From positions 1 through 32,623 of the forward strand of contig JAUYJN010000005.1 in NCBI GenBank assembly GCA_030700255.1: a stretch of DNA of 32,623 bases, written 5' to 3'. Of the stretch, positions 4,063-29,492 are shown in pieces. The position numbers and the translations under genes were made by a program. The DNA comes from Candidatus Peregrinibacteria bacterium (GTDB lineage Bacteria > Patescibacteriota > Gracilibacteria > UBA1369 > JABINC01). The notes under the pieces were generated by a model. It saw only the letters and a program-made list of their open reading frames with translations. It had not been told where the DNA came from and did not search any database. How positions within the stretch are numbered: position 1 is the stretch's first letter; every line of letters begins with the position of its first letter.

Positions 4063-4091
4063 CCTTTCGGTAAAAGATTATAACGGAAAGG
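4063..4091 (-). promoter_or_regulatory. hpf promoter -10 box inside an inverted repeat
   Basis: On the minus strand a perfect TATAAT lies at 4082-4077, 41 bp ahead of the hpf ATG. It is framed by an inverted repeat, CCTTTCGGT (4063-4071) and ACGGAAAGG (4083-4091), whose arms match at 8 of 9 positions. No good -35 box is seen at the normal distance (TTTCTC). A weak -35 with a palindrome around the -10 would suit a regulated promoter. The same repeat could instead act as a weak hairpin after tpiA. Confidence 0.35.
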
Positions 4092-5325: not shown

Positions 5326-7437
5326 ATGTCACTGGACAAAAAAATAGTCGATGATAAAGAAGTAATGGAAATTATAAAAAATGCACTTGGTCTTGGTGAA
5401 AGTGACCTTAGTAATATAACGCCTATTTTACCTGCAATTGACTCAAAGGCAATCCTTGCAAAATTTGACGAAGAAACCGCATCTTTACAATCCAATCCTA
5501 AAGAAGCATTCACACTTCCGGATTTCAATGATTTAGAAGTTAAATCTGATATAGAAGAAGAAAAAACAAGGATTTCAGAGATAAAAGCTCAACATGCAAA
5601 AACATTATATCAACTTGCACAATCGGTGACCAAACGTGAAAAAATCGCTGTCCAAGCAGAAATTGAAAGAGAAAAGGCAATCATAGAATATTTAGACACT
5701 CTAATCAGCGCATATGAGTCAATGTTAATCGTCGCAAACAATAAATATGAATATAAAACTTTGTACGAACGAACAGCGGCTGAACTTAAAACTAAAATTG
5801 AAGAACTTGATAGTGACATTCAAGCTTTAAAAAAAAGTAAGCAAGCAGCTGAAAGCCGAAAAGAAACTGCTACAAATACAGTTATACGTAAACTAAAAGA
5901 GATAACATGGCTTCAAAGTGAGAAACCGAGTGAAGAGATAAAAGCAAATAACACTCTAATAGACACTCTAACACGTGAACTAGAGGAGAAGGCTACGCAA
6001 CGTGATGCTGCAGACACAAATTTACAAACTGTAAGGAGAGAATTTAATGATATAAAAGTATCTCCAGAAGAAGAAAAACTAAACGAGGCAAGAGATACTA
6101 TAGCTAAGAGAGATGAGGAGATCAAAGAAATTGAATGGGAAATAACGAAGGCCGTAACAGAAAGGGATTATGGCCTTATGGGAACTAAAGCCCAAGAGTG
6201 TCTAAGCAAAATTGCAGAAAAAGAGCAAGCGGCAGGCACACTCGCCGACCTTATGAAACAAATGCTAGGAAAGCCTGAAGAAGATATAACCAACTTATCA
6301 GAAGAGGAGCTTGAAGCGAAATTTAATACTACTTACGCAAAACATTTAGATGCACGAAGAGATATACAATGTAAGATAGAAACACTGAATGAAGAATATA
6401 ATATTTTAGATAGAAGAATTGAAGAAATAGAAGTGCAAATATCTAAAACACGTAAAAGAAATATAGATGTTCAAGTATATTTAAATGATGTAAATCTAGT
6501 ACCTAAACTACATAAAGACAAAGAAGCATTTTTAGCAGAGGAAGGGAAGGAAGCTACGATTATAGACGAATTAGAAGAACGTATATCAACTTTAGATGAA
6601 CTTAAAAAGAAACTTGATGAAGTACCTGTTAATAATGATGAGAGAGAACTTAAGGCAGATGATTTCAGAACAAATACACTTGAGCCTTCTCAAAATAACG
6701 TAGATGTTGCTATCAAACTGGTAAAAGAAAAAAGAACACTCGCGGAGACTATTGATAAAGAAGTAATGGAAATTATACTATTCAGCTCAGAAGAAGCAAG
6801 AAATGAAAGCCTAGTAAGAAGATTAACTGACGAAAACAGAAAAATTCTGCGAGCACAACTAGTCGCGACACTAAGCGCAACCTCTCAAACTACTGAGGTT
6901 TCACAAGCAGTCTTTGATGAATTAGCACAACTAGTCGCGACACTAAGCGCAGCCTCTCAAACTACTAAAGCTTCACAAGCAGTCTTTGATGAATTAACAC
7001 AACTTAAAGAATCAATCAAAATAAGAAATGTAAGACAAAATCGTCTAATCACAGCTCTTATGGTTGCTGCTTTACTTTTAGTTGGTGGTAACTTCTTCAG
7101 CGAAGACAGTAACAATACAAGTCTAACAGGATATGATGACAGGACGGAAGAAGAGGACGACGACGATAACGATACAAGCGCAGAAAACACGGATGACACA
7201 AATAGTACGGAAAAAACTGAAGCTACCACTGCTGCTCTTACTTGGATACCCTCCTCCGCAACTACCCCTACTCAGCAAGAAGCCCCTACCCCTGCTCCTA
7301 CTTCTACTCCTACTCCAACCCCTCCTCCAGCTACTAAAAAAGCAAAAGCGCCTGCCACAAAGAAACCTGCTTCAACAGAACCTACACCTACACCTACCCC
7401 ATCACCACCAAACCCTTGGAGGAAACCAAACATATAA
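5326..7437 (+). CDS. Membrane-anchored coiled-coil protein with Pro/Thr-rich tail, family unknown
   Basis: I do not recognise a family. The 703-aa product is dominated by long charged heptad-like helices (residues about 60-470), rich in Glu, Lys and Leu, typical of an extended coiled coil. Residues 510-557 are two tandem copies of a 24-aa unit. One hydrophobic segment at about 574-592 (LITALMVAALLLVGG) is a likely transmembrane helix. After it come an acidic stretch (EEEDDDDND) and a tail of Pro/Thr/Ala repeats (about 640-703), which looks like an extended linker. There is no signal peptide, so the coiled coil is probably cytoplasmic and the tail outside, but topology is inferred. It has its own strong promoter. 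The stop codon may be secondary: the frame continues in phase into the decayed ORF at 7465, so a C-terminal domain may have been lost. Confidence 0.8.
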   Translation: MSLDKKIVDDKEVMEIIKNALGLGESDLSNITPILPAIDSKAILAKFDEETASLQSNPKEAFTLPDFNDLEVKSDIEEEKTRISEIKAQHAKTLYQLAQSVTKREKIAVQAEIEREKAIIEYLDTLISAYESMLIVANNKYEYKTLYERTAAELKTKIEELDSDIQALKKSKQAAESRKETATNTVIRKLKEITWLQSEKPSEEIKANNTLIDTLTRELEEKATQRDAADTNLQTVRREFNDIKVSPEEEKLNEARDTIAKRDEEIKEIEWEITKAVTERDYGLMGTKAQECLSKIAEKEQAAGTLADLMKQMLGKPEEDITNLSEEELEAKFNTTYAKHLDARRDIQCKIETLNEEYNILDRRIEEIEVQISKTRKRNIDVQVYLNDVNLVPKLHKDKEAFLAEEGKEATIIDELEERISTLDELKKKLDEVPVNNDERELKADDFRTNTLEPSQNNVDVAIKLVKEKRTLAETIDKEVMEIILFSSEEARNESLVRRLTDENRKILRAQLVATLSATSQTTEVSQAVFDELAQLVATLSAASQTTKASQAVFDELTQLKESIKIRNVRQNRLITALMVAALLLVGGNFFSEDSNNTSLTGYDDRTEEEDDDDNDTSAENTDDTNSTEKTEATTAALTWIPSSATTPTQQEAPTPAPTSTPTPTPPPATKKAKAPATKKPASTEPTPTPTPSPPNPWRKPNI
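6853..6996 (+). repeat. Tandem duplication, two 72-bp copies
   Basis: Copies at 6853-6924 and 6925-6996 differ at about 4 of 72 bases and encode two 24-residue units (LVATLSATSQTTEVSQAVFD and LVATLSAASQTTKASQAVFD, with their flanks). The period is a multiple of three, so the frame is kept. They sit between the coiled-coil region and the membrane segment. High identity implies a recent duplication or conversion. Confidence 0.9.
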
Positions 7438-7464
7438 ACCACACTTTATAAACACGAAGAAGGC

Positions 7465-7706
7465 ATGAAAGATGTTTTTGACCGAACCGGTTTAAGGGGA
7501 CAAACCTAGATGTTTTAACAAGATTTGCAAAAACAGAATTTGGCATAGAACAATCTGAAATAATGGCGATTCTTAAAGAATTAACAGAATATTTATCAAA
7601 AAAGGGAGAGCTTCAACAATTAGAGGTATTAAAAAATTACTTAGATGAGGCGACTAGACTGATTACAACATTCCCACGCCTACGTCAAGCTGAGGTTCCT
7701 TATTAG
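7465..7706 (+). pseudogene. Frameshifted ORF of about 80 codons, possible lost C-terminal domain of the upstream gene
   Basis: ATG 7465 opens MKDVFDRTGLRGQT and stops at TAG 7507-7509. In the -1 frame the reading continues at once as NLDVLTRFAKTEFGIEQ and on to EVPY, ending at TAG 7704-7706. Joined, the pieces make one plausible helical protein of about 80 aa, so a single-base change near 7500-7506 has split it. The site lacks a standard X XXY YYZ slippery heptamer, which favours decay or a sequence error over programmed frameshifting. The first piece is in the same frame as the 703-aa gene, only nine codons after its TAA. The whole could therefore once have been a folded domain at the end of the Pro-rich linker. 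A weak AAGG precedes the ATG. Confidence 0.5.
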
Positions 7707-7718
7707 GGACCTCTTTTT
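7692..7718 (+). terminator. Intrinsic terminator at the end of the first transcription unit
   Basis: GAGGTTCC (7692-7699) pairs with GGGACCTC (7706-7713), giving 8 bp with one G-U, a TTATTA loop, then five T residues (7714-7718). It overlaps the last codon and stop of the decayed ORF and ends exactly where the first ATG of the giant ORF begins. Confidence 0.75.
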
Positions 7719-10700
7719 ATGGTAAAATATAAAGATTTTATAAATGTACATAAAAAAACTATCCCGCTAATGCAAAACTTCCACTGTCAATTCACCCCCT
7801 CTAACTCATTCGACTCATCTCGTAAGTGTTTTTCACTCGAATCAAGGCTAGTTTGGGCAAAAGAAGCTTCAGAGAACGGAGAGAGTAGTCCTGCCGAAAT
7901 AGCAAGACATGCTATAACGCCGGAAAAGCTAGGGGAAGCTATAGTCAAACAACTTAGAAAGATTCTAAAAAAAGATATCCTTAAGGTAACTAGTGATAGT
8001 AAAGCCAGAGAAAGCACATCGCAAGAAGTAAGAATTGGAGGGAAGAACTATACAATTAAAAATGATGATTTAATACAGCTTGGATCACATCAATTAACTC
8101 GATCACTAACGGCCTCTCCACTTTGGGATGATATTAAAACTGCAATTCCAGATATAAGCAGTAGAAAAACAGAAATCATAGATTTGATGAGTTTATACAA
8201 AATTAGCATGACATCTCTTATACCAAAGGATGTATTTTGGCTTAAAACACTAAAAGAGGGGCTCTCTGAAACAGATAGAACAGAACTACAAGAGCTGGAA
8301 GATGCCTGGAATGAAACCGCCTCTCAGGACAGAGGGGAATTCAAAAAAGAGATGGAGAAAGAGTACAAGGCGGCAGTGGAAGATTCTAGAAGAAAAATGG
8401 AAGATGAAGAGGCGAAAGAAGCAGCTAAAGAGGGCCGTGCTACATCAGCACAAATGCGTGAATGGAAAAATTTTACCGATAAATTTAAAACAAAATCCGG
8501 CACAGTCGATAAATGGGAGGGTCTTACACCGGAATTAAAAACGCTTACATTAAGTAGTAATGATTTTACTGATCTTTTATCCATAGATGACATAAAGGAA
8601 ACAAAATTTATAAGAGAAGATGCCGAAGGGAAGGCATTAACATTTGAAGCAACACCGGAAGAAATAGCCCTATTTGAAAAAATAACTGCATTCATTGGGG
8701 GGAATTTAGGATTTGGAGAGAACGTAATAAGGAATATGCAATCTCAAGTATCAAATGATATCTCAAACCCAACAAGCGAACCTGAGCATATTAAACAAGC
8801 GGAAGGAATGAGATTAGTATTAGTAAACTTGAGACAATTTGCAACCGGTTCTCACATATTCAAGAAAATCCTTGAAGATTTCAAAGGAAAAGATTATCAA
8901 ACATTCTATGGAGCTTTCTACGACAACAACGGTAAGTTAACAAAAAGTAATAGCAAAGGACTAGGGAAATACATTTCAGACCTTGGATTAAAAGATGCTC
9001 TTACAACAGAAGAATATAATAAGATATTCCTTGTTGTATGTCCAGCTGCAATATATCAAACTTGCACCTCTTTAAAGAAAAAAGAAGAGGAGGCGGAAGC
9101 AAAAAGTGAACGTAAAAAAATCGCAGAAAAAGAGGCTGAAAAAATGGCGAAAGCGGAAATAGCAAGAATGAATGAGGAAAACGAACGTCAAAGAATTCAA
9201 GCACAAGAAACTGCAGAAAGAGAACAAAAAGAAGCGCTGTCCGCACAAGAAAGAGCAAAAGAAGATGCTAAAAAAGCAGAAGAAGAGGCGAAGAGACTTG
9301 AAGGTGAAAGGGCCGAAGCGGAGAAACATGATAGAGAATTAAAAGCACTTAAAGAAAAAGTAGGAACTGCTAGCACAAAAATGAAACAATATATTGACAC
9401 TGTTAACCCAAATACAACTCAATGGGTAAATTTAAAAGACTTATCAGAATTACAAAAACCAATTCAGGACGAAGAAATCGAAAATGCAAATGAAGAAAAC
9501 ACATTTGAAGATTTACGAAAAGAATATATTGAAAAGGCAATAAAAATATATATGAGGGATTTAAGAGAATTAAATGCGATAGATTTCGCAACAAAAGTAA
9601 GAGGAGATAGCGTTTATGTAGAAAGTAAGTCAAAGGTAATACAAATCCCAGGGGGGGATACAACTACTATACCAGCGAAAAAAACATACATATCATTAAC
9701 TATTTTTACCCTTGCACTAGAACGAACCGGGCTCAATGAGTACAAAAGATATTACTCAAGAGAGGCGAAGGATACGAGAGATGCCCTGTTGGCAAAGGCT
9801 ACAAAAGCATTTGAAATTTTCAAAAAAGCAGACACACCAAATGAAGACATAGCCCCGGAAGATCTGGCAAAACCGGAATTCGCACAAATATTTGCTGAAT
9901 TTAAATCCGGATCAGCTCCAGCCATCGCTTCAAACACGCCAAAACCAAAAACACAAGAAAAACAAAATCCATTTGATGATCTCGGGGATGATGCAAAGTT
10001 TACACAAACAAGAGGAAATGCACTCAGATTTGCGAAGTCAGGAAATATGAATAAAGCGAAACCATTATATGAAGAGGCACTTAAGTATGTAGAAGATAAT
10101 TACAACCTTGGAGAAGGGGCGAATTCAGTCAAAATAATAGATAAGTACCTGGCAGTAGGTATTGAATACATAAACTATCTTTACAAGAGCATGGGAAGCA
10201 AAGCAGACGTAAAGCATTTTAAAAAAACCGTCGAACGCTTATCTAAAGTAAAAGATTACTGTCATGAATTTAAAATGCCTCTAGCTCAATGGGAACGGGC
10301 TTCAAGTCAAATACACGAAATAAAACTAATAAAATTTGGAACTGGCCCTGATAAAAGTTCAGAACTAAACTTCGCTGCACAAATAGCAGATCCAAGGGCC
10401 AAAGCCACATTTACAAGAATAGAAAGTAATGCAATAGAAGATACCAAGGGTGAAAAAGAAGCTTCTACATTTTTCTTTGAAGGAACATATACATTTGAGA
10501 ATATAAATACAATCTTTACACAGAGCAAGCTCACGATAAACAACGTCGAAGTATCCTTAGAAAAAGGTAAAAAGTATAAAATAGAACAAAAGAATGGTGT
10601 TTCAAAAATAATTGAGATTATAAATAAAGGGACGTTACCAAATGGCGACACCCGTGTCACCTACAAAATAGATGATAAAACAAAAACTATTGTCATACCA

Positions 10701-13700
10701 AAGGATGGTGAATACAAAGTGATAGTCGAAGGTAGCATTGTGTATAAAATACCTTCAGTGGAAGAAATAGACGTCGCAAGCCTAAACAAAAGATTAAAGC
10801 AACTTGGGAAAATCAAAATAACAGAAGAACCCACTGAAGCTATTGCAGAGAGTAAAGATGTACAAGAAGAAACAAAACCTGCAATCGAAGAAAAACCAAA
10901 AGTTCACTCATATGGTCTACCGGAAGATAGGGCTGCGCTCGCCGGTTACATAAAGACAACCGAGGAACTATATATAAATAATGGAAATATAGTTAGTGCA
11001 TCGATTATTGCGGAGACAATAGAAAAGGAATTTCCAAATATGGAAGGTGATGCTGCTCTGTATTTTGCAGATATGTGTATGGCTATAGCTGATGGTCTTT
11101 ATAAACAATTGGCAAATGATGAGAGGACAGATTATGCAGACGTGGATATACGCTTAACTGAAGCGTTAGAATATTTTGAAAAAGCAAGTAAATATTCAGA
11201 GGTGGCAAAAGCTACCGGAAGTATAATAACCAGTGAAGTCCTAGATCAAAATCTAAGTAGTCATAGCTTGGGACAACTACAAAGAATTCAAATAAGTGAT
11301 ATTTCCGATTATAAAATCACAAGAACTTTTGATGTAAAAATAGATCCGATTGATAAAAAAATATCAGAGAAAATCAGTGCCGCAATTGAGGAAATAAATA
11401 AAGAGCGGAAAAAAACTAAATTCAAAAAATCATACATCAAAGATAATAGTATATTTGTTTATGTTTTCTCAGGAGACTCAATAAATAATAGCATAATCGA
11501 TACAACGACAAAGTCACCACTATCTCTCAAAGAAATAGATGCTAAAAGAGTTGCAGACTTGGCCATCGCTGAAGCAGAGTTAGAAGTGGAGACGCAAGAA
11601 GAGCATGTCGCAGAACCTGTGGTAGAAACCGAGGCGGAAAGAATCACAAAAGAATTTGATACAAAAATAGCATATCTTATGAATGCTGATGAAAAGCCTG
11701 AAGTCGATGAAATGCTAAAACAAAGAATTGATTTCGATCAAATACTCGATTTATATAAATTGACTGAATTTGGAAGTTCAGACAAAAAGACAAGTTATGA
11801 AGGTCTCGCAGAGAAATTCATAAGTCTTGCGATAGATGGCATGATGTCAAAAATGGAAAGTTCATTCACTATTTCTCAAACAAATAATGGCAGAAGACAA
11901 TCATGGTTAAAAGATAACAAATACTCTACAGAAAACTTCCTTGATTACTACTTTGAAAAAATGGGTGTTAAAGAATTTAAGACGAAACTCATTAGCAATG
12001 AAGATATTAAAGAAAAAGCCGAAACACAATTAAATGGAAGTGAATATGTAAAAACCGCCCTACTCTTCGATGTTTCAATTAGTGATAAATTTAAAGCTAT
12101 AGTATCAAAAGCAGATACAAAAACTGTAGGTGAATGGATTTACCCGGATAGAGTGCCGGACCCTATTACAGATGCAGGACTTTCAAAGATGTTAGCACCT
12201 GCAAGATATTTAAGGTGGGTTAAAGAAGAAGTCTTCAAAGATCAAAGAGATCTGTTCCATGAAGATGATAGAGATGCTGCAGAAAAAATAATAAAAGATT
12301 TTTTGATAGCGAATCTAAGCAATGATAGCCTTAAAAAAACTGCTGAAGAAGTAAATAAATATGAAGAAGTGCCAATCACCGATCTCGAAAATGCAACAAA
12401 AGAAATCCTCGCTACAGATATATTTATGAATGCGGCAACACTTGAAAGTGAGTTGATTGAGAAATTTGAAAACAAGTCTGATGGAACAAAGCAAAGGCTC
12501 GCAATCAGTTCAACAGACGGTGATAGTACAAATGAAGGTATAAGATTCAGACAACTTGCACTGGTTGCATTCAGAGAAAAATTTGAACACTTCAAAAATG
12601 ATACGAATAAAGCACCATATAGCTCAAGTGAGGCATTGAGAGAAAGCTGGCTAACCGTATATCAAGCTTACAATATCCAAACATTCTCACCAAAGAGCTT
12701 TGAAATATTTGAACTAACTGATGCGCCTCGGCACATAGACAGAAGTGACCCTCTAGATAAAGCTCTTGGAGATTTGATGCGTGATGCAGTGATGTATTTC
12801 GCAGAAATATATTTGAAAGAAGCATTGCAAGAAGCGAAATTTAACGGAGTTGATTTCCGGGCGAAATTTGCAGTAAAGGACGGTTCAGGAAATATCACAT
12901 ACGATGAAAAAGCATTCTTCCGTGCTATTGCAGAAACAGAAATACCTGATGCCGAAGGCGACATATATGCATCGCTAGATTATGTGACACATTTCTTAAA
13001 TGATTTTGATTCATTTAAATTTGAAAAAAGGGTTGCAAAAGCTATCAATCCGGAAACAAAAATACTCGATACAGCCTACGTATATTCAGGGGATTCTAAA
13101 AAAGTGGAAACATGGAGAGATGGAGCAAAGGAAACTACAGAATCTTATAATGAAAACGAAATTAAAAGTAATAAACCAGCCTTAGATTTCATCAAATGGT
13201 TTGGAAAAGAAACAAAGTCAAATGTTCCAAAGAAGATAGATCCTAGTGTGCTTTCGGCAATGACCGGGAGGCTTGTTGCAACTTTAAATAATGAACCTGT
13301 CCCAGCTGAAGTTGCTTCAACACAACCGGAAATAATGGTGGGAGATGAGAAATTTACACTTGAAGCTATAAGCGAGGCCGTCACCAAACAAGGACTCATG
13401 GACGGTAAACGTTGGGATCAAATCAAGATAAACGATATATTTTTAGCAAATATAATGCTTAATTCAGCATACGTCGATGATGCTGTTAGAATTTATATGG
13501 AAGGTAATAAAGATGAAGCAAATGTTGAAAATAGAAATGGGTTCTTCTACAGATATCTAAGAAAAACTTATAAGAAAAAAGATAGGGAAGCCTTATTAGC
13601 ACTTACTCCTGACAAACTCACAGACAAGCTTAATAAAGAATATGAAATCCCTCGTGAACATCTAGTTCATAATTTCGATGTAGCCGGAAAATTAAGAGAA

Positions 13701-16700
13701 TATCAAGAAGAAACGCTTGGAGCAGAAAGTGTCACGGCGACACTTGAGCGAGAAGAAGATGAACTAATAGCAGAAACAAGGAAAGATGAAGAAGATGAAA
13801 AAACTACTCTACGTAGCAAGGCTGCGGAGATTGAAGACCAAAGAATTCAAGCCATCGCCGAAAGATTAATTGATAGTGATGCTCTAGCAGCTAAAACTCT
13901 AATAAAAGGAATGAGCCATCAAGAATCAAAAGCTTCAGAAAGAGGAATTTCTGAGGCAAGAGATACAACTAAAACGACAGCCGAATTCTTGAATAGAACA
14001 CCGGATGCGGAAGTCCAAGCAATGTTTGATAACATAAATGCATTTATAAAATCAGAGATTAATAATGCCGATCCAAAAGCAACTCAACTTAGAGCTGCTC
14101 AGATTGTAATCAAAGATATTTTAATAAATGCTGCGCATGAAAATGGTATAAGACCTCCACTTAAAAAATATGATCTCGGACAAGTACTCATACTAAATAA
14201 TTTACGCATCGCAAATCATTTGGTAAATGTTATGCAAGATCAATCTACTGAGATGGTACCTGAAGAATTAGACCAAATGCTCACAGAGTTATTTGAAAAA
14301 GATGATACATTTAGAGAGCTACTTTTCAGAGACGGTCTGTCACTCGAACCACTTAAAACAGCTTGGATCGAAGCAAGAAACAAAGAACCACAAAAATTAA
14401 CAGCCGACCTACTCCGCGAAATACTTCTCCGTCTTCCAAGTACAGAAGAGCAAATCAAACAAATCCCAAGTGAAATAATGCTCCGGTGGTATGAGAAAAC
14501 AGCTGACGGCGAACTCGTATTCAAAGAGCAATTAGATACAATGAAAATCGTCCTAATCATACTAAATAGTTTCGGATTTAGAATCCAATCTCTTGATCCG
14601 CCAACTACTTCTTCTGAAAATGAATTAGCAAATGAAGTACTCACACGAATAAAAGATATCCTTAATATTTATCACCCTCGTAACGAAGCTCTCGGGGACA
14701 AAAACAAGGATGGAGAACCGGGCAGGGATTACACTCTTAAAGACCCGTATAAAGCTAAACTTTTAAGGCTCACACCTTTGGCGGAAGCTGCGACATTTGA
14801 AGACGCAAGTTCAGCTGAAAAATTTGAAACATTAAAAGCTGCCTTCTTTGACGCAATAGGAAATGTAAGGGATCGCCGAGACAGAGCCTCAACTCTGGAA
14901 CCTTACCGAGAAGTTCTAACTTATCTCAATGACAAGGATTTAAGTGTTAATACAGATAAACAATATATGACACTATTTTACGAGACCTTAATGACAATGA
15001 AGGCTCCTGAAAAAACTGAAGTCATAAGAAGTGAAGAGTTAACCGTACGTGAGCAAGTAATAGATGCTGAACGCACAAAACTTGCAGAAGAAACAAATTT
15101 ACAAAATTCATTACTCGAACAACTTTATAGAGAAAACGTATTAATAGATGCAAAAGAAACGATCGATGAAACGGGAGGACTCAAACTAAAAGATTCAAAA
15201 GTTGACTTCAGTAATTTACAACATTTAAGTCGCAATGTATTCTCAGAAAAATTCAGATACGCAGTCAAAGGCGGGGAATTTCTAACGGGAAAAGAAGCGG
15301 GAGAAGCTTACGGAACAGCACTGAACCTCCTACTTTCAAGCAAAGCCGCTGATAAATCAATTGTCGGGTTCGGTGATTTTGCACTAAGTAAATTTTATAA
15401 AAACACCGCCGGAATAGATTCCCCATTACAAGCGAAAGAAAAATTCTTCAGTGATTACAAGGACATAAAAGATGTTTTAAAAACTATCGCAGAACATCAG
15501 GATAAAAATCCTGAAATAGAAGGATTCGAAAAAGGATATGAAAACGAACCTTGGTACAAAGCATACAAACCACTTGCGAAACGTACGGCACGTATACTTT
15601 ATGATCAACTGCAAAGAGATGGCGTACTAGAGAAAAAACTCATAATAGACCCTAAAACACTTAAATTTTTAGAAGAAACACTACTACGTGGAGAAGCTCC
15701 TAAAAGTCTGGAAATGATGGAGACTGAAATGGAAAGCTATATGGTAAGCAGCTCGAAAATTATAGATGTATTAAAGAAAATCAATGAAGAAATCGGTATT
15801 GTAAACATGATCGAAAGTACCGAAGAAAACGCAGATCAAACAAGGCTTTATACAATTACCGGATATAGTCGGTTACACTCTCCATACAATGATAAAAATC
15901 AGCCGGAATACGTTTCATTTGCAGAGTACCTGGAAAGACTACATCTACTGCAAACTCAGATGAATATTTACAATGGTATGGATAGAGAAATGAATAAAGA
16001 AACATCGCCTCATCAACTTTGGCTTAAAAAATGGAAAGAAAAAAGTTTCGATAAAACAACCAAAGAAACATATAGATGGTTGACCGGTGATTTCACTACG
16101 AGAGACCAAGGGGAAATGATCAATTTCTTAAACGAAGTTCTCAACAAATATAATAAAGAAAGGCCGGAAATCTTGAGATCCGCACATAAGCAGTGGACGC
16201 TCGAAGAAATCAAGCAAGCTCGCAGATTTGATGCAATGCATGAAGGCATCGCTGCAAATAACCAATTAAATGATCCAAGATCATACAAAGACAAAAGATT
16301 TGGCACATTACTGGAAGACGCAGAAACTGACGCAAACTTACAATTTGAAAATCTCAAAGATGCTTCCGGACCATGGAGCGAACATGACATTGCATTCAAC
16401 TACGGACTCACAAGTGAGAATTCAAGACTGCAAAGTTTCGAAGCGGTTTACATTTCAAATAGAATGAAAAAAGATTTCGTTGAAGCGTTAAAGTCACTCG
16501 ATATAAGACCACCGGAAAAGAAGCAAAAAATGATAGATGCTTTCCAAAATAATCCTGACGATATAGCCAAATTATTTTATGCAATTCTTGGCAAAGAAGA
16601 AACAAGGAAACGTCCAGGGTTCTTCAAAGTGAATTTCGAAGAAGTAAAAATAGGAACCGATAGAGTAAAAAGACCTTGGGCGGTAATGGATATTCCACAA

Positions 16701-19700
16701 GTAGACTGTGCGAGTTTCTTAGAAAAAAATCAAGAAATAATTCAAGATTTAACATGGAAGACCCCTACTCTAAGAGAGATTGTACTTGCCAAAGGAACCC
16801 CTGGATTCATCGAGTTTTTCCAAAGAGGTGAAGTCCTCGAACATATAGTATATGACCAATCAGAAGCAGCAATGGCAAGGTTACAAACATCAGAAAATCC
16901 GCTTGATAGTTTGATGGAATACACACTTCGAATTCATGAAATAAGCGATAGAGGAAAATCAATCGACAGACCAAACCGTGCAGAATTAGAACAAAAAGCC
17001 AAAGAACAATATACGGATTTATACGAGATGTATGTAAATCGTGACTCAGCATGGCAACAATATACAAGCAATACATTTGTGATGAGCAACGACCCTGAAC
17101 TCAAAAAAACAGAAGAATTGAAATTCAAAGGTAAATATGCGGACAAACTCCTAAAAGACGGTATCTCGACTATGAGCTTCATGCTTGAATACCCAATTAC
17201 ATGGGATACAAAATATGACAGATTTATAGATGTTGATACTGTTCATAATTTGTATGAAGCAATAGGGATTCTATTTGCCGAGAATCTAAGTGGATTTGGA
17301 GTAGACAATGAAAATATTGAAATAAGCACACTACAAAAACTTCTTATAATACGTGATTCAAATGAAAAGATTTTTGATGCAAACAATAAAACGAGATCGG
17401 ATCGAATGTCTAAATTAAAACCTAGACACATAGATGCTATAGCGACTGCGATGCAGTTCGGAAAAATCTACAAAAAAGCAATCGAACAAGGTGAAAATAG
17501 AAAACAAATGGTATTTGATATTTTTAGAAGTAAAAAAGATGGAGGTATAGATATAGCCTCATTGTTGAAAGCACAGGACGTGGCATTTAAAGCGAAAGGT
17601 GTCGATCTTACAGCTGATGAACTTTATAAAATAGGTGATGACCTACGTACAAGACTCGCTAACAACACACTCAGCCATATAGAACTAAGTCGAGATATGG
17701 AGGGCGCAGCCATAGAATATATGGACTTCCGAACTTTACTTGCCTTCCCTGTCGAGGGTTACGAAGGCATAGATGATGAAGTATTCATGCAATGGAAACT
17801 GAAAGTAAGTGGACAAGCAAAAGAGCTATTCACCGAAAGAATGCGCCATCTGGTCGCACCATTCATTGATGCCGAATTAACACCTTCAAACCTTGATAAA
17901 ATTCTACAAGCCTATGTTGATATACAAGATTTAAAGCATAAACAATTAGAAATTAAACCGTATGGCGATGAATATTCCAATATAGAAAGTGAAATAAAAA
18001 ACATAGATAAAAAGTTAAGCAAACCTATGCCGCCGGAGGCAAAAACAAAGCTTGAAGAAAGAAAACAACGTTTGATAATTGCCAAAGAAACACTAAAGAA
18101 ATCAAAAGAAGATTACGATGCACTAAGTACAAAAATTGGAATAATAAATGATATATTGGAAAAAGAAATCGGAATTGATTATGCGGTAGAAAAATTAGAA
18201 AAATTACTTGTAAATGATTATGGTGAACTTTTGAGAAAAGCTGTAACTGATTTACCGAAAATCGATGCTGCGAGCTTCTTCGGAGGATTTGGAATGAATG
18301 TAGATGTTATGGCGGAGAGAGCACAGCTCGGATGGAATGCGGGAATCAATCTGCCAAAAGAACATCGGATAGATCTAATGCTAACAGTCACTCCGGGAGA
18401 CGGAGCCGGCGTTCAAGCCGGAGGATCAAAAGGATGGAACGAGCTCGGTGCGGAGGGCAGAGGAAAAGTACAAATTTTCGCGCATGGAGGATTTAATGCG
18501 GGACTAAATGATACGGTAGCAAGGTTCAATGGAGGAGTCGAATATTCAAAACTTGAAGGCGGAAGACGTGAGTCACGTGGAAGTATAGGAGCCTTTGCAA
18601 CTGCAGAAATAGGACCGGATGGAATCAAAGCGACTATTGGAGCTATGGCTTCAGTCGGGGGATTATCACCTGAAGAAAAGGAAATAAAATACAAAAAAGA
18701 ACTTAAAGCCGGAAGGGAAGGAATTCTTAAAAAAGAATACGAACGCGTCGATGCTTACGTAGAAGCTACGGTTACAGGGTCTTACGCTGAAAAAGAAGCT
18801 ATAAAAAAATCCATAATGGAAGCCATGGAAGATGTGTTCTTAAGAGCTATTATAGATGCGGAGGCCGGACGTGCGGCAATGCCAAAAACAATAGAATTAA
18901 CAAGATTCGAGGTCGGAGTAAGTGTCGGACTGGATAAAAATATAGCCACTCTCGGACTCCCTGTACAATTACATATGGCATTTGTATTCTCTGTAGATGG
19001 GAGAGTTTTTGTAACCAGAGTTGCAACACCGGAACACATAATGGATGAGGCCTCTGACAATGAAATAATGAGAATACTTGAAGATGAAGGAATTAAAGCC
19101 GGAGAAATGACACTAACTTCTCCACTAACTATCGATGACAACAATATGCTTTCAAGTGCAACGGCCAGAGGAATGATCGAAAGGGCTGAAGATGCAAAAG
19201 ACATACTTATCAAAGTCGGTGAAGGTGGAGAAAAGATATATACAAAAAAAGGTGATGAAGGTCTCAAACTCAAAGGTGCATATGAAAAATCAGTCACACT
19301 TGGGAATTTGGAAGAGGCAAAAAGCAAATTCACCGAGGATTTCAATAAATACATGGACATATATCGTGACAAAATCAAAGCGGCACAAATCAGACTCGAA
19401 CCAATTCCGGGCGATATCCACAAAAAACGTCTCGTACTTTACAACACACCTGGAATCACAGAAATCCACATGGATCCGACATCTGAAGATTTAATGGAAA
19501 TAGATGCAAATGGGAATATGATTTTCGACTTCGCATCGGGATTCCCGATTATCACAAAAGAAGTATTTGAATTCGAAGCGGAAAATTACGGGGCAAATAC
19601 GGTAAATATAATTACGATCAAATTTAACCGTCATCTTTCACGTAAACAAATCGAAGCAAGTGAAAGAAACTATTACACGGTGATGAGAAATGATGAGGAC

Positions 19701-22616
19701 ACCGAAAGCAAAGCTATTAAAATGACACCAAGACGAGCAATCGAGCTCGACTTAACTATGGTCGAACGTGCCAAGAAAAAAGACACAGAAGGGTTCTTCC
19801 AAGAAATTAAAGCTCTATACGATCGCTCTAAACACATCGATGCAATGCATCACAAATTCATAGACAGATTCGGTGGTATCAAAGCCGTCGACCCAAGATA
19901 TGAGTATATTTCAAAAGACAGAGTGGAAGATATTAGTGATGCCGTAACAGCTTTTATACATCCTAAGCCTACAAGCGATCCTAAACGAATAGATGAACAA
20001 AAAGCTCTAATCAAAGATATCGAGAAATACTTCACTTTGAGTATAAAAATAAATGAAGATGATAAAAAGGGAAGGCACAGGCTTGAAGAGAAAGATCAAC
20101 TTGATTTACTTCCAACACAAGTTCAAGAAACTAAACAATTAATTCAACTTATCCAAAAATGGTACAAAAAAGAATATGGAGCAGAACTTAATAACTATGA
20201 ACTTCAATACTTCCTAGGTCAGATGGTCTTTGAAACGTTCTACAATATTCATAGATCAAGCTATACAAATAAATCTTATTTTATAAGTGCTGATGAAATA
20301 TTCACTGATAATGGAACGATAGACGAGCCGGGTAAACGAGAAAAATTACAAAAGAATATGGGTTCACTCTCAAATCCTGTTTACAAAACAATGCAAAATT
20401 ACCTTGCTCATCTACATGGATCAGGAAGAGATATGGCAAGGAGTGTTGCGGAAAACTACGTAAACAATCACCCTATTCAAGGGCAAGAAGCAAATAGAGA
20501 CGCAAGAATAAAAGCTTTAACTGAATCTTTGATTGGAGATAGTGAGCAAGAAGTCCATAGATTGATCATGGAGAAAATGGAACTATCTTCGATAGAAGAA
20601 GCAAAAGAATATTGCGACTATCTAGCTTACAAATATTTCAAGGATCGAGATTCTGCTGGCTATGACGGCAAAGGGTACATAGCAAGAGAACAATTAAGTT
20701 TCATACCTAAAAGAATCGAAGAAATCGAAATTAGACTCAAAACTCCAGAAACAATCAGAGCATTCTACGGAGCATATGAAAATATATTTGAAGGAAGTCA
20801 GGCTGACATGATTCATGATGAAAATTCTATGCTACTTACAAGATTAAATGCATCGTTTGCATCTGCAAGACATTTCAAAGAAGATGTAGTTAATCCAAGA
20901 GGCTGGTACAGTGCAGGTGGACGTGCAGTAGAGGCTCTAAGTGCAAACTTCGGAGGTCTACGTAAATCATTTATATATGACCTTGGTGATCCAAAAGAAT
21001 CAGAAAAGGCACGTGCGGTATTTGAATACATGAGACCACTTCCAAGGCTTGGTAGAGAAGACGGAGTCGAATATAACCCACTATCAGATGTAGATTTCTT
21101 CCAAACCGGAGACGAAGATATCAGATTCGCAGTTCGACAAGAAGAAGCACCCATCCACGATCCAAAAAGAAAACGAAGGATTTCAACAAAAAGTGAGTTA
21201 GAAGATGCAATAACAAAAGCAGAAAAACTTTACGAAGATATCGAAATCACAATGCAAGACGTAAAAGAATATTTATCAACTCCTATGGGTCTCAAAGTCC
21301 TAGAGTGGGCTGGAATGTTCTTAAAAAAAACAGATGCAGATATAATGCTTGATCTATTTTCAGAAGTAAGAGCTGTACCTTACGACGACCTAAAAAACAG
21401 AGAACCACTAACTGAACCAACAAAAGCTGCATTCGTAGAATTTGTAAATATAAATCGTGTACTTCGTGAAATAGAATATTTCAACGCAAACCCCGAAGCT
21501 CACGAAGATGCATTCTACACCGTAGGTCTTGGCGGTACAGAATACGAAGCTCAAATAAGATACATACCTGTTGAAAGAATCGAGAGTGGTGTAAAAAAAT
21601 TAACTGATTCATTCAATATAATTGAAAACGATACTGACTTTGATAAAAATATATCAAAATTCTTAGGAGATTATGTTGAGATTGAAAGTACCGAATTAAC
21701 AAAATTACTAGACAATACAAATGGAAGAGCAAACTGTATCAGCTATCTCAAAAATCATGAGAAAGAAGTCGGATTTGCTAAGGAAGAAATAGATGGATTA
21801 TTCAAAGATTTCAAAACTAGAGAGTCAGCTTTAAGGCAATTCGCAAGAATAATCGCACTTTCGAAATTCACTCCACTTTCAAAACAAGAAAGAGAATCAA
21901 TTTTGAAATCAAATGATGCCACAAAAGAAATAAGCAGAATGATAACGGAGGAAAACGAAAAACAATATTTGAATCAAAAAAATAGTCGAGTTATGCCAGA
22001 CGGCACAGTACAGGACGTAGTACCTGTGGCATATATATTCAAGAGTTCTGACCCTGAAAATGTAATAATCGTAAATGCAGGAGGTATATCTGCAACCGGA
22101 ACATTCCTGAAATGTGGTAACTGGTCAACTCTAGCACAAGAGCAATTAGCACTATTTGTGCAAGAACAAAGAACTACAGTATTAGATGGCGGCGGAGCCG
22201 CCAAAAAAGTAACCGGAGATGTAATCAAACCTAAGATGGAAACCCAATATGGTGAAGGAGTATTCGGAGTATCGGGCGGAGGTAGATTGAAGGTGACACC
22301 TCCAACAGATATAACTCATGGTAAAAATAATACAGATACAAATAGTACAAACAGTGGAGTAAATGAAGGATATGAAGATATTCCAATAGACGATAATGGT
22401 GAAGTAGACACAATCACTGGTGACAAAGGATCTTTTACAGTCACTCCAACTGAAGCGGGTGCCACAACCGGAACATCCGGAGGGAAACAGTCCCCGGAGG
22501 GAATTTCACTACGCAGAGGTAATCAAAATCCTGAGACTACAGAATCTAAACCAAAAGTAAAACAGCCTAAGAAAAAATCTGATGATGAAAGTGAAGAGGA
22601 CTTAAGTGGAATATAA
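7719..22616 (+). CDS. Giant protein of unknown family, up to 4,965 aa
   Basis: This is a single open frame of almost 15 kb. I recognise no family and assign no function. There is no signal peptide, no membrane segment and very little cysteine, so it looks cytoplasmic or exported by a non-Sec route. Visible pieces: a highly charged Glu/Lys/Ala helix at about 455-555, TPR-like helical pairs at about 760-860 and 1070-1150, then thousands of residues of mostly helical, Lys/Glu-rich sequence. A Gly-rich alternating-hydrophobic segment at about 3517-3650 stands out as beta structure. It is followed by more helical sequence and a disordered Thr/Ser/Gly tail (about 4850-4965) ending in Lys/Glu/Asp. 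The first ATG (7719) abuts a terminator, and ATG 7770 (MQNFHCQF) is a plausible real start, giving 4,948 aa. It lies between a membrane-anchored coiled-coil protein and a secreted modular protein. Confidence 0.85.
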   Translation: MVKYKDFINVHKKTIPLMQNFHCQFTPSNSFDSSRKCFSLESRLVWAKEASENGESSPAEIARHAITPEKLGEAIVKQLRKILKKDILKVTSDSKARESTSQEVRIGGKNYTIKNDDLIQLGSHQLTRSLTASPLWDDIKTAIPDISSRKTEIIDLMSLYKISMTSLIPKDVFWLKTLKEGLSETDRTELQELEDAWNETASQDRGEFKKEMEKEYKAAVEDSRRKMEDEEAKEAAKEGRATSAQMREWKNFTDKFKTKSGTVDKWEGLTPELKTLTLSSNDFTDLLSIDDIKETKFIREDAEGKALTFEATPEEIALFEKITAFIGGNLGFGENVIRNMQSQVSNDISNPTSEPEHIKQAEGMRLVLVNLRQFATGSHIFKKILEDFKGKDYQTFYGAFYDNNGKLTKSNSKGLGKYISDLGLKDALTTEEYNKIFLVVCPAAIYQTCTSLKKKEEEAEAKSERKKIAEKEAEKMAKAEIARMNEENERQRIQAQETAEREQKEALSAQERAKEDAKKAEEEAKRLEGERAEAEKHDRELKALKEKVGTASTKMKQYIDTVNPNTTQWVNLKDLSELQKPIQDEEIENANEENTFEDLRKEYIEKAIKIYMRDLRELNAIDFATKVRGDSVYVESKSKVIQIPGGDTTTIPAKKTYISLTIFTLALERTGLNEYKRYYSREAKDTRDALLAKATKAFEIFKKADTPNEDIAPEDLAKPEFAQIFAEFKSGSAPAIASNTPKPKTQEKQNPFDDLGDDAKFTQTRGNALRFAKSGNMNKAKPLYEEALKYVEDNYNLGEGANSVKIIDKYLAVGIEYINYLYKSMGSKADVKHFKKTVERLSKVKDYCHEFKMPLAQWERASSQIHEIKLIKFGTGPDKSSELNFAAQIADPRAKATFTRIESNAIEDTKGEKEASTFFFEGTYTFENINTIFTQSKLTINNVEVSLEKGKKYKIEQKNGVSKIIEIINKGTLPNGDTRVTYKIDDKTKTIVIPKDGEYKVIVEGSIVYKIPSVEEIDVASLNKRLKQLGKIKITEEPTEAIAESKDVQEETKPAIEEKPKVHSYGLPEDRAALAGYIKTTEELYINNGNIVSASIIAETIEKEFPNMEGDAALYFADMCMAIADGLYKQLANDERTDYADVDIRLTEALEYFEKASKYSEVAKATGSIITSEVLDQNLSSHSLGQLQRIQISDISDYKITRTFDVKIDPIDKKISEKISAAIEEINKERKKTKFKKSYIKDNSIFVYVFSGDSINNSIIDTTTKSPLSLKEIDAKRVADLAIAEAELEVETQEEHVAEPVVETEAERITKEFDTKIAYLMNADEKPEVDEMLKQRIDFDQILDLYKLTEFGSSDKKTSYEGLAEKFISLAIDGMMSKMESSFTISQTNNGRRQSWLKDNKYSTENFLDYYFEKMGVKEFKTKLISNEDIKEKAETQLNGSEYVKTALLFDVSISDKFKAIVSKADTKTVGEWIYPDRVPDPITDAGLSKMLAPARYLRWVKEEVFKDQRDLFHEDDRDAAEKIIKDFLIANLSNDSLKKTAEEVNKYEEVPITDLENATKEILATDIFMNAATLESELIEKFENKSDGTKQRLAISSTDGDSTNEGIRFRQLALVAFREKFEHFKNDTNKAPYSSSEALRESWLTVYQAYNIQTFSPKSFEIFELTDAPRHIDRSDPLDKALGDLMRDAVMYFAEIYLKEALQEAKFNGVDFRAKFAVKDGSGNITYDEKAFFRAIAETEIPDAEGDIYASLDYVTHFLNDFDSFKFEKRVAKAINPETKILDTAYVYSGDSKKVETWRDGAKETTESYNENEIKSNKPALDFIKWFGKETKSNVPKKIDPSVLSAMTGRLVATLNNEPVPAEVASTQPEIMVGDEKFTLEAISEAVTKQGLMDGKRWDQIKINDIFLANIMLNSAYVDDAVRIYMEGNKDEANVENRNGFFYRYLRKTYKKKDREALLALTPDKLTDKLNKEYEIPREHLVHNFDVAGKLREYQEETLGAESVTATLEREEDELIAETRKDEEDEKTTLRSKAAEIEDQRIQAIAERLIDSDALAAKTLIKGMSHQESKASERGISEARDTTKTTAEFLNRTPDAEVQAMFDNINAFIKSEINNADPKATQLRAAQIVIKDILINAAHENGIRPPLKKYDLGQVLILNNLRIANHLVNVMQDQSTEMVPEELDQMLTELFEKDDTFRELLFRDGLSLEPLKTAWIEARNKEPQKLTADLLREILLRLPSTEEQIKQIPSEIMLRWYEKTADGELVFKEQLDTMKIVLIILNSFGFRIQSLDPPTTSSENELANEVLTRIKDILNIYHPRNEALGDKNKDGEPGRDYTLKDPYKAKLLRLTPLAEAATFEDASSAEKFETLKAAFFDAIGNVRDRRDRASTLEPYREVLTYLNDKDLSVNTDKQYMTLFYETLMTMKAPEKTEVIRSEELTVREQVIDAERTKLAEETNLQNSLLEQLYRENVLIDAKETIDETGGLKLKDSKVDFSNLQHLSRNVFSEKFRYAVKGGEFLTGKEAGEAYGTALNLLLSSKAADKSIVGFGDFALSKFYKNTAGIDSPLQAKEKFFSDYKDIKDVLKTIAEHQDKNPEIEGFEKGYENEPWYKAYKPLAKRTARILYDQLQRDGVLEKKLIIDPKTLKFLEETLLRGEAPKSLEMMETEMESYMVSSSKIIDVLKKINEEIGIVNMIESTEENADQTRLYTITGYSRLHSPYNDKNQPEYVSFAEYLERLHLLQTQMNIYNGMDREMNKETSPHQLWLKKWKEKSFDKTTKETYRWLTGDFTTRDQGEMINFLNEVLNKYNKERPEILRSAHKQWTLEEIKQARRFDAMHEGIAANNQLNDPRSYKDKRFGTLLEDAETDANLQFENLKDASGPWSEHDIAFNYGLTSENSRLQSFEAVYISNRMKKDFVEALKSLDIRPPEKKQKMIDAFQNNPDDIAKLFYAILGKEETRKRPGFFKVNFEEVKIGTDRVKRPWAVMDIPQVDCASFLEKNQEIIQDLTWKTPTLREIVLAKGTPGFIEFFQRGEVLEHIVYDQSEAAMARLQTSENPLDSLMEYTLRIHEISDRGKSIDRPNRAELEQKAKEQYTDLYEMYVNRDSAWQQYTSNTFVMSNDPELKKTEELKFKGKYADKLLKDGISTMSFMLEYPITWDTKYDRFIDVDTVHNLYEAIGILFAENLSGFGVDNENIEISTLQKLLIIRDSNEKIFDANNKTRSDRMSKLKPRHIDAIATAMQFGKIYKKAIEQGENRKQMVFDIFRSKKDGGIDIASLLKAQDVAFKAKGVDLTADELYKIGDDLRTRLANNTLSHIELSRDMEGAAIEYMDFRTLLAFPVEGYEGIDDEVFMQWKLKVSGQAKELFTERMRHLVAPFIDAELTPSNLDKILQAYVDIQDLKHKQLEIKPYGDEYSNIESEIKNIDKKLSKPMPPEAKTKLEERKQRLIIAKETLKKSKEDYDALSTKIGIINDILEKEIGIDYAVEKLEKLLVNDYGELLRKAVTDLPKIDAASFFGGFGMNVDVMAERAQLGWNAGINLPKEHRIDLMLTVTPGDGAGVQAGGSKGWNELGAEGRGKVQIFAHGGFNAGLNDTVARFNGGVEYSKLEGGRRESRGSIGAFATAEIGPDGIKATIGAMASVGGLSPEEKEIKYKKELKAGREGILKKEYERVDAYVEATVTGSYAEKEAIKKSIMEAMEDVFLRAIIDAEAGRAAMPKTIELTRFEVGVSVGLDKNIATLGLPVQLHMAFVFSVDGRVFVTRVATPEHIMDEASDNEIMRILEDEGIKAGEMTLTSPLTIDDNNMLSSATARGMIERAEDAKDILIKVGEGGEKIYTKKGDEGLKLKGAYEKSVTLGNLEEAKSKFTEDFNKYMDIYRDKIKAAQIRLEPIPGDIHKKRLVLYNTPGITEIHMDPTSEDLMEIDANGNMIFDFASGFPIITKEVFEFEAENYGANTVNIITIKFNRHLSRKQIEASERNYYTVMRNDEDTESKAIKMTPRRAIELDLTMVERAKKKDTEGFFQEIKALYDRSKHIDAMHHKFIDRFGGIKAVDPRYEYISKDRVEDISDAVTAFIHPKPTSDPKRIDEQKALIKDIEKYFTLSIKINEDDKKGRHRLEEKDQLDLLPTQVQETKQLIQLIQKWYKKEYGAELNNYELQYFLGQMVFETFYNIHRSSYTNKSYFISADEIFTDNGTIDEPGKREKLQKNMGSLSNPVYKTMQNYLAHLHGSGRDMARSVAENYVNNHPIQGQEANRDARIKALTESLIGDSEQEVHRLIMEKMELSSIEEAKEYCDYLAYKYFKDRDSAGYDGKGYIAREQLSFIPKRIEEIEIRLKTPETIRAFYGAYENIFEGSQADMIHDENSMLLTRLNASFASARHFKEDVVNPRGWYSAGGRAVEALSANFGGLRKSFIYDLGDPKESEKARAVFEYMRPLPRLGREDGVEYNPLSDVDFFQTGDEDIRFAVRQEEAPIHDPKRKRRISTKSELEDAITKAEKLYEDIEITMQDVKEYLSTPMGLKVLEWAGMFLKKTDADIMLDLFSEVRAVPYDDLKNREPLTEPTKAAFVEFVNINRVLREIEYFNANPEAHEDAFYTVGLGGTEYEAQIRYIPVERIESGVKKLTDSFNIIENDTDFDKNISKFLGDYVEIESTELTKLLDNTNGRANCISYLKNHEKEVGFAKEEIDGLFKDFKTRESALRQFARIIALSKFTPLSKQERESILKSNDATKEISRMITEENEKQYLNQKNSRVMPDGTVQDVVPVAYIFKSSDPENVIIVNAGGISATGTFLKCGNWSTLAQEQLALFVQEQRTTVLDGGGAAKKVTGDVIKPKMETQYGEGVFGVSGGGRLKVTPPTDITHGKNNTDTNSTNSGVNEGYEDIPIDDNGEVDTITGDKGSFTVTPTEAGATTGTSGGKQSPEGISLRRGNQNPETTESKPKVKQPKKKSDDESEEDLSGI
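7720..7728 (+). promoter_or_regulatory. Possible extended -10 promoter of the giant gene
   Basis: TGGTAAAAT fits the extended -10 form TGnTAtAAT with one mismatch. The -35 position 17 bp upstream (TTATTA) is poor and falls in the terminator loop. Transcription would start near 7735. That is downstream of the first ATG (7719), so translation would have to begin at the next in-frame ATG, 7770. Confidence 0.3.
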
Positions 22617-22681: not shown

Positions 22682-25600
22682 ATGAAAAAATTCCTCTCGA
22701 AAATCCCAGGACTTACATTAACAATATTGCTAATAATAATATTAGCAATAAATGTTGCTTATGCGGTAAAGCCGGCGAAAAAAGCTCAAAGCCCTTTTAA
22801 TGGCCTATTACAAATAGTGGAGTCACTTAATCCTTTGGGTAAAAACCCAACTCTTCCACTTATAATAGGTGGGCCTATGACACCGGACACAACGCCTTCG
22901 AGACCATGTATATTGATGCCACCTGAATATTATAACCCTGCAAATCCATATGACAGATGGCCAATAGTAACAACATGGTATTATGATGTTTTAAATAATT
23001 TCTCAGGATACATAATAGATGCCGTAGACCAAGATAGTAACAATAGATTCAGCGAAGCTGTCGATACCTACACTCGTCCACTCCCACAAAACTCATTCAA
23101 TAATTTTTGTTTCAATGCGGGACAAGACAAAAACCCATACGTAGATGATGATGGGGATGGAGAATTTAATGAAGATAGACCTGGCGGAGGAGACAATGAC
23201 GGTGATGGGAATATAGATGAAGATGGTTGGCCATGGGATGGTAATTTTGGAGATTATGGGACACTCGCTCTCTATCAAGGTAATGAAAATGGCGACACAG
23301 GGACAAATAGTAATGATGTAACCTACCCTGTTGTTGATGAAAGAAGATTTATGGTTGTCTCAAAATGTGACGATCCAAACACTTCAACTTCAACAAACGA
23401 AGCCTATGATGCTAACGATGTAACTTGTAATGGTCAATTCACATCTTTAAATGAGTATACTGCTATGATAGACCAAGTGGATATAGAACCTGGCGACATA
23501 GTTCGTTTTGGTGTTTATGTTCACAACAATTCACGTTATCCGGATAATCCAAGTGCGATTGCAAATGATGTATTACTACAATTTGACACCAAAACGAACC
23601 CGAACAAGCCTCGTGCCGCTATAAGTGCACCAAACAATATTTATCATGAAAATCCTTATAATACTAGCAGCCCTACTCTCAGGGATGTTGACGATTTAGA
23701 TAACGACGGTAATACGGTGGAGATACTCAGAATGGCAACCGATACAACTAGAGTAAATTCTTTGGTGCCGATACTGCTCACACCTATCCCTGATGCTACT
23801 TGGCTATACAATGAACAAATCGCATCAAACCCACCGAATTCAAATAATCCTTCTTATCATGTACCTTTCAGAATAACCAATGGTAGCACTACAATTATTC
23901 AAGATTATGGAACTCCACCATCTGTACCGATTACAGAAACTTTTGATCCATCTATAGTCAATGAAGATTTCGAACTTGGAATAGATCAAGTACCGGGATG
24001 TTTCGAATTTGATGGATGGTATTTTTTCGACTACCAAGTAGAAGCAGCGCAGGAGCCACTTTGTGAAGAACTCGATGTACAATGGATGCAACAATGGCCG
24101 GCTTATGAGCCTCTTCCTGTACTTCGCGATGAATTCATTTTACCCGCAGATGGTAATCCACCGGTGCCAATCAATTTTTCAGACGGAACGGATGAAGGAC
24201 TTTATATAGTTGGAGACAGTACAGCTCCGCTAATAATACAAATAAACCGAAACGGGTATGAAGGAGATCTCATATGGGAACTTGTAATACCGGACGGCTC
24301 AGGTAACTTGGTTCCATATCAATCAAGTGTCGATCATTTCTGTTCAAATGCAGCCACTGGAATGCAACAAGACAGCTGTAATTCGGGAACTACAATGAGT
24401 GATAACAATGCAGGAATTATATTTAATAGATTTCGAACAAACGTAAACTCAACTCTAGGGGCAGCTTACAAACAAAATACTTTCAAAGTATATAACCTAA
24501 ATCAAGAAGTAATCTTACATGTATATGCTCCGGCAGGGAACGGAGAAAAAACTTCAGCTTGTAAAGAAGCTGTGTACTTTCCTTCTTGTCAGGATATGAC
24601 GTTAATAGCTCCTATCACTTTGGATGACCTTACAATCGATCTTGCAACAGGAATTGAAATAGAAGTAGACACCGTTCCAGAATTCTACAATGGACCTATA
24701 GTCTTTGGAACTGACAATCAATGTGGTGTATTTGATATAGATGATGGCGGCAGTGATTACACAGATGATCCAAATCCGTTACAAAACTTAACAATTCTTT
24801 ACGAAGTAACTGTAGACTTCGGTATCAATGACCCAAAAACTGCGTGGTACAACATCAATACGGGAGAGCCGGGATGTTCTACTAACACAGGAGAAGGTGA
24901 CAATATTACTATCCGTGCCCTATCTGACAAAAGAGGTTTCTGTGAACAAACATTCACACTTACAGAATCAGAACCTCAATTCTGTACAGATTTAGAGGTA
25001 AGTGTACAGCCCGATGTATACTTAGATGATGGCAGTGACACAATGACTGCAACCATAGATATAAATGCATCTGCAGGATGGAGCGGAACTTTAGCCGCCC
25101 TAGTATGTGCAAGCCCAACAAACCCATTGCTATGCGTACTCAGCCTCGACCATACCGCAAAAATCACTTCAATCAATATTCCAACCGGAAGTATTTTCGA
25201 CACACCTGGCACAGTATCCCAAGCGGCCGCAACAATCGGCCCGGTTGGTGACGGTGACCAAGTACGAATACAAATAGAAAATATTAACAATGAATTAAGC
25301 CAACTATATGTATACGCATTACCTATTGAACCAGCATGTTCCGACATCACCCCTTTTGAATGGTGTGGAGATGGAATCATAAACGACGGAGAGGCTTGTG
25401 ACGATGGAAACAATATAGATGATGATGATTGTAGCAACACATGTGAGATCGGGGAAACACCGGGAGAATGTACAGATGTAGAGCTCACAACAGTTCCAAC
25501 ACCTATATATTTAGAAGATACCTCAACTGCATTTGATGTAAATATTGATGTTACCGCAGATCCAACTTGGACAGGAAGTAGTTCAACTATGGTATGTCCG

Positions 25601-29446: not shown

Positions 29447-29470
29447 AAGTAGTAATATTGCGTCCCCACC

Positions 29471-29488
29471 ATGTGAATATATTCACAT
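29471..29488. promoter_or_regulatory. Perfect 18-bp palindrome with CRP-like half-sites, just ahead of holA
   Basis: ATGTGAATATATTCACAT is its own reverse complement and contains TGTGA-N6-TCACA, the classical CRP/FNR-family half-site arrangement. It ends 4 bp before the holA ATG (29493) and begins 24 bp after the surface-protein stop. As RNA it could fold into a 7-bp hairpin with a TATA loop, but no T-tract follows, so termination is unlikely. Confidence 0.5.
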
Positions 29489-29492
29489 TTCA

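Follow-up and report, generated by a model that had tools for sequence, protein, structure and literature searches.

A giant protein of Candidatus Peregrinibacteria that appears to be an extremely long representative of a family confined to one order and encoded beside a surface protein

Introduction

Peregrinibacteria are tiny, probably host-dependent bacteria. One contig of a 1.37-Mb Candidatus Peregrinibacteria genome, analysed here as a whole (32,623 nucleotides; hereafter the window), carries a reading frame of 4,965 codons. An initial annotation, made from the letters of the DNA, had described it as an intact ORF for a maintained protein of no recognised family. This raised the question of what such a protein is, whether it has relatives, and where in or on the cell it might act.

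An intact reading frame

7692..7713, + strand: terminator-like hairpin, directly ahead of the giant ORF
7719..22616, + strand: giant ORF, 4,965 aa, intact from ATG to TAA; possible true start at ATG 7770

The reading frame is open under genetic code table 11, and the result is the same under table 4. With the base composition of the ORF, the chance of 4,965 codons without a stop is about e^-355, and the GC contents of the three codon positions (0.49/0.34/0.27) differ in a coding-like manner. Translation may in fact begin at ATG 7770 (codon 18), because the terminator-like hairpin ends at 7713 and because the N-terminal tag described below would then lie at residue 26, matching relatives.

No transmembrane window reached the threshold in the protein (maximum KD19 1.36), which also lacks a signal peptide or any hydrophobic segment of transmembrane or signal strength. 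No internal repeat was significant. Lys and Glu make up 20% of the residues. Cys depletion is at the 10th percentile of the soluble proteins of the complete genome G052; low Cys is not diagnostic of export. Searches of Pfam, NCBIfam, PHROG and PDB with the full-length protein gave no family match, and a scan of genome contigs with the window's own sequence gave no hit.

Much of the initial annotation was confirmed by these results: the ORF is intact, signal peptide, membrane segments and adhesin-type repeats are absent, and no known family in the four databases matches most of the length. The statement that the protein is made and maintained agrees with a colinear homologue of 6,969 aa at the same locus in a genome of the same genus. 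Its exclusion of a polyketide or peptide synthase also stands, as catalytic and carrier domains and Pfam or NCBIfam hits are absent, and so does that of an RTX toxin or Ig-repeat adhesin, for which there were no domain hits, repeats or export signal. The TPR-like parts that it noted near the N-terminus do not reach significance (PF07719, E = 1.3, with 9.7 bits where the cut-off is 27). Two statements held in part. The absence of a recognised family is correct for the databases, but the protein is no orphan, since its C-terminal part of about 1,450 residues matches an order-wide family (see below). The description as mainly Lys/Glu-rich helix holds for the composition, but not for the core, where the models predict a beta-meander rich in Gly and, after it, another beta domain. 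The proposed dN/dS analysis would be uninformative because the nearest homologue is only 35–40% identical and synonymous sites would be saturated.

A long extension shared within the genus

7869..18095, + strand: N-terminal extension, Lys/Glu-rich and lineage-specific (residues ~51–3459); colinear blocks with the homologue in genome G001 only

The homologue in the same-genus genome G001 lies among the same neighbours. The two proteins share five long similar blocks with 28–38% identity each and up to 55% per 100 residues, and large insertions separate the blocks in the middle. The extension of about 3,460 aa had no convincing relatives outside the genus. Judged by these alignments, the giant size in this genus comes from an extension that lengthens a conserved core. 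Apparent repeats inside the extension were lost on reseeding, except for one duplicated segment in G001.

An order-wide family

18252..20402, + strand: family core (residues 3512–4228), found with a profile from which the window's genus was left out

A profile made from the C-terminal portions of the giant protein and its G001 homologue detected a weak relative (E = 2e-4) in genome G009, from another family of the order. This ORF, of 1,682 aa, lies at the same locus, consisting of tpiA, the large protein and a protein with a signal peptide. When the tpiA flank was inspected in 20 further genomes, most had a large ORF at the same place, and many of these ORFs were clearly homologous to each other, with a common core of about 900 aligned columns. 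The profile of this core matched 63 of the 89 genomes of the order. It matched none outside the order among 353 genomes of the class, and among 380 genomes of the phylum the sole match outside the order was marginal and not convincing (G369, E = 5e-4).

The profile used for this order-wide count included the window protein, and membership was therefore tested with a leave-one-out profile lacking the window protein, the G001 homologue and L026. With hmmsearch --max (filters off), this profile found residues 3512–4228 of the giant protein (E = 2.1e-14) and the G001 protein (E = 1.2e-15), against E = 0.03 for the best reversed-sequence control; with the default filters, the giant protein was missed. 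Profile-profile alignment of the giant protein with the family profile by hhalign gave 98.7%. The C-terminal ~1,450 residues thus belong, by profile comparison, to a previously undescribed family of Candidatus Peregrinibacteria.

Member lengths at 24 loci ranged from 1,484 to 5,541 aa, with a median of 2,002 aa, to which the 6,969 aa of the G001 protein are to be added; the majority of the remaining members are large proteins of unexceptional size (1,484–3,344 aa). The 5,541-aa protein (L026, family f16) occupies the same locus and its membership is weak (domain E = 3e-4, or 3e-7 with the giant/G001 piece). A signal peptide or a clear transmembrane segment was absent in about 31 members. In a scan with the alignment of family f7, the member records were labelled Candidatus Peregrinibacteria or Patescibacteria. 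The giant protein is, on the similarity searches, one of the largest members, of extreme length, of an order-specific family.

A conserved locus with a surface protein

4158..4838, − strand: tpiA, which bounds the conserved locus on its upstream side
5326..7437, + strand: 703-aa coiled-coil-like protein with one transmembrane-like segment near its C-terminal end and a Thr/Pro-rich tail
22682..29446, + strand: Cys-rich surface protein, 2,254 aa, with a signal-peptide-like N-terminus, DUF4215 / myxo_disulf_rpt repeats and a conserved C-terminal domain
29436..30500, + strand: holA, which bounds the conserved locus on its downstream side

The order tpiA, large protein, surface protein with signal peptide, holA was conserved in most of the roughly two dozen loci examined. 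In the window, the minus-strand genes upstream are truB, murE, ribF (riboflavin kinase part), hpf and tpiA; gatA and then gatC follow holA. The surface protein gene starts 65 bases 3′ of the giant ORF, and strong orthologues of the surface protein number about one per genome.

For the 89 genomes of the order, we compared the presence of the large protein (by the core profile) with that of the surface protein (by a strong match, E < 1e-30). Both were present in 55 genomes, only the large protein in 8, only the surface protein in 13 and neither in 13 (Fisher p = 6e-4, for genomes that are not independent). Several of the 13 genomes with only the surface protein have a large ORF in place, and a relaxed search recognises those of L119–L121. 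In genus g13, two genomes (G013 and G060) have both genes, and three (G024, G032 and G057) have neither, tpiA adjoining other genes there. The two proteins are retained or lost together. Their lengths also correlate (rho = 0.68, n = 24; for family means, rho = 0.66, p = 0.04); the correlation is not significant within f14, and kinship was handled only through the family means. Through joint presence, joint loss and length, a role of the gene pair in building the surface or contacting a host can be put to the test.

At the position of the 703-aa gene, G001 has similar-looking genes, with no significant sequence similarity (E = 0.14). Between this gene and the giant ORF, a small remnant-like frame (7485–7706; NRFKGTNLDVLTRFAKTEFGIEQSEIMAILKELTEYL...) has no start codon at its front and no Pfam match above cut-off; it is possibly a broken small gene. 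In family f7 (L016, L024 and L032), an extra protein of 176–178 aa with one N-terminal hydrophobic segment is encoded between the large and surface proteins, and that of L016 has a weak cohesin match. In family f2 (L129, L130 and L131), holA has the opposite orientation to the surface protein gene.

A rare N-terminal tag

7833..7868, + strand: N-terminal tag SLESRLVWAKEA (residues 39–50 of the giant protein)

The pattern [RK][LFM][VIL][FYW] occurs within the first 60 aa in 17 of 31 complete N-termini of the family, where about 0.4 would be expected. In two of these 17 the match is at a neighbouring site, and most other members have a looser or near form. The consensus, R-L/F-V/I-F/Y/W, is very rare in proteomes. 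A search of G052 with a loose regular expression showed no enrichment. With a 12-column position-specific score, two of the 842 ORFs of this complete genome scored above 10, namely its giant protein, which belongs to the training set, and one of 710 aa, which does not. In the genome of the window, none of 272 ORFs (326 kb, about a quarter of the genome) scored above 10.

A few signal-less proteins of relatives, tagged or weakly tagged, have recognisable domains: LysM in G011 (a training member), SLT, Amidase_2 and LysM in G023 (score 15.2), and DUF5715 in G012 (score 11.7). Domains active on peptidoglycan normally lie outside the cytoplasm, and such tagged, signal-less proteins therefore point, in a few suggestive cases, to export without Sec. 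A broader proposal, that Peregrinibacteria have an undescribed Sec-independent route that reads the N-terminal tag and carries large signal-less proteins to the surface or into a partner cell, is unlikely to prove right in this form. If the route exists, its cargo would comprise some peptidoglycan-cleaving proteins and the family with the barrel-like core. Should the tag serve as a sorting signal, the means by which such cells export signal-less proteins would become a question in its own right.

The 710-aa protein of G052 (L080:15665-17797; G052:C1:235665-237797) is Cys-free, belongs to no recognised family, has a tag score of 18.5 and lies near ftsA/ftsZ-like genes. In G023, two large signal-less proteins adjoin each other (L170:1146-5315 and 5388-8636); the first is the tagged SLT, Amidase_2 and LysM protein mentioned above, and the second has YkuD, VanY and DUF1615 domains and a tag-like FFRPQFIFLISKP. 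A signal-less protein of 1,766 aa in G021 (L169:4180-9480) has LRR, a weak SLT match, Amidase_2 and LysM, and lacks the tag. In family f2, a second small tagged protein (186–190 aa) is encoded directly before the large protein (L030:781-1341 and the matching gene of L031).

The C-terminal core

18273..18662, + strand: Gly-rich beta-meander of 8 strands (residues ~3519–3648); strands from a model with pLDDT ~50; outer-membrane-barrel-like
19323..19952, + strand: most conserved beta domain (residues ~3869–4078), EIHMDP...FPIITKEVFEFE...ANTVNIITIKFNRH, with beta strands in the model
22092..22214, + strand: C-terminal K-C-G-N motif region (residues 4792–4832), followed by a low-complexity tail

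AlphaFold models were obtained for a short member (L019, pLDDT 66) and for the giant protein's own core (pLDDT 51). Both have about 8 consecutive antiparallel strands, a helical insertion, 2 more strands, a second beta domain and a helical part; the L019 model alone has C-terminal strands around the K-C-A/G-N motif. A profile of residues 3870–4130 of the giant protein and its G001 homologue hit L033 (2.9e-9), L026 and L013. At the C-terminus, a K/R-C-A/G-N motif is near-invariant in the family; the giant protein has FLKCGN, a match that is weak by itself (i-E 0.018). Its last 100 aa are 43% Pro, Gly, Ser and Thr. Profile searches of Pfam and PDB with the core gave no match, and a search of viral predicted structures gave no significant one.

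Possible site of action

In the proposed architecture of the family, a short tag is followed by a Lys/Glu-rich stalk that evolves fast and varies in length, then by a beta-rich C-terminal core and a low-complexity tail. Adjacency to a surface protein gene and joint retention or loss led us to a probable role in building the surface or touching cells. There is, in our estimate, about an even chance that the giant protein works in the envelope or faces a host, is exported independently of Sec and has the surface protein as its partner. It would act at the cell envelope, reached without a Sec signal peptide and with the tag as a candidate sorting signal; the core would contact the envelope, the partner or another cell, the stalk formed by the long extension would set the reach, and the job would be to build the cell surface or to attach to other cells. 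The signal-like segment and disulphide-type repeats of the partner speak for this location, as do the proteins with transmembrane-like segments at the locus in the genus and in f7. Against it, a family without a signal peptide or clear transmembrane segment in any member would by default be called cytoplasmic, and we know of no export system here for such signal-less proteins. The link between tag and peptidoglycan comes from few cases, and some homologues, such as that of G021, lack the tag.

The main alternative, possible if somewhat unlikely, is a cytoplasmic scaffold, that is, a long helical protein that would organise the envelope on its inner side, such as the site where the surface protein is assembled, and would never be exported. 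The lack of export signals in the ~31 members and the Lys/Glu-rich composition fit such a scaffold, low Cys being common in soluble proteins too, and the neighbouring genus-specific proteins are coiled-coil-like with one transmembrane segment. However, proteins with the same rare tag in relatives carry peptidoglycan-active domains, and the Gly-rich amphipathic beta-meander of the core is unlike typical scaffolds.

The meander bears on another explanation, in which the protein is an exported effector or tether whose meander would form a barrel within a diderm partner cell's outer membrane. The first strands of the core have 15–25% Gly and a hydrophobic/polar alternation of 0.80, which was reached in none of 5,000 shuffles. 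Foldseek searches with both models returned mainly outer-membrane barrels (KdgM, NanC, invasin, TamA and BtuB) with probabilities up to 1.0, but with no E-value below 0.08 and from models of pLDDT 51–66. Omp85 was absent in 31 of 31 genomes, in which positive controls rang, and the cells therefore have no outer membrane of their own of that type. Epibiotic or predatory relatives exist (PMC8080830). On the other hand, soluble meander barrels of the lipocalin type alternate too, and the lineage has no known host, so we regard insertion into a partner's membrane as distinctly unlikely. The predicted core resembles KdgM, NanC, invasin and TamA in its up-and-down, Gly-rich amphipathic strands, and differs in the lack of a signal peptide in the family, of Omp85 in the genomes and of a significant E-value; we describe the segment as probably outer-membrane-barrel-like and do not class the protein as a barrel.

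Sequence drift, in which the locus tolerates bloated, weakly constrained coding sequence and the giant size has no function, would suit an extension without relatives outside the genus and lengths of 1,484–6,969 aa, but is very improbable given extension blocks that are recognisably conserved between two species of the genus and stop-free in both, and a core and partner conserved across the order.

Relation to other giant proteins

Giant proteins of Peregrinibacteria are already known and uncharacterised; what is new here is the family, the locus and the tag. In a survey of proteins >5,000 aa, Peregrinibacteria came out as one of the bacterial phyla with the strongest enrichment, and their huge proteins are reported without a COG assignment (PMC11573180). 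These come from the same phylum as the giant protein, but the part of the survey available to us names no family, locus or partner, and most members of the present family are below its 5,000-aa cut. One family of huge Peregrinibacteria proteins is now defined by core, tag, locus and partner.

Genomes of Ca. Peribacter vary mainly in large proteins, several of them predicted to be extracellular, with a Cys-rich set (PMC4736985). Those of Ca. Peribacter riflensis are similarly large, some have Myxococcus-type Cys repeats as in the partner described here (myxo_disulf_rpt), and attachment was proposed for them; they differ in being predicted extracellular, whereas the giant protein is Cys-poor and signal-less. 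For Vampirococcus lugosii, of a neighbouring CPR clade, giant membrane proteins have been proposed to serve in host attachment (PMC8080830). These share giant size in a related clade, but have a membrane localisation and PKD, DUF11 and WD40 domains, none of which the giant protein has. The portions of PMC11573180, PMC4736985 and PMC8080830 available to us do not describe its family.

The largest ORF of genome G052 (G052:C1:395275-408861), of 4,528 aa, has an N-terminal signal-like segment and lies away from the tpiA/holA locus.
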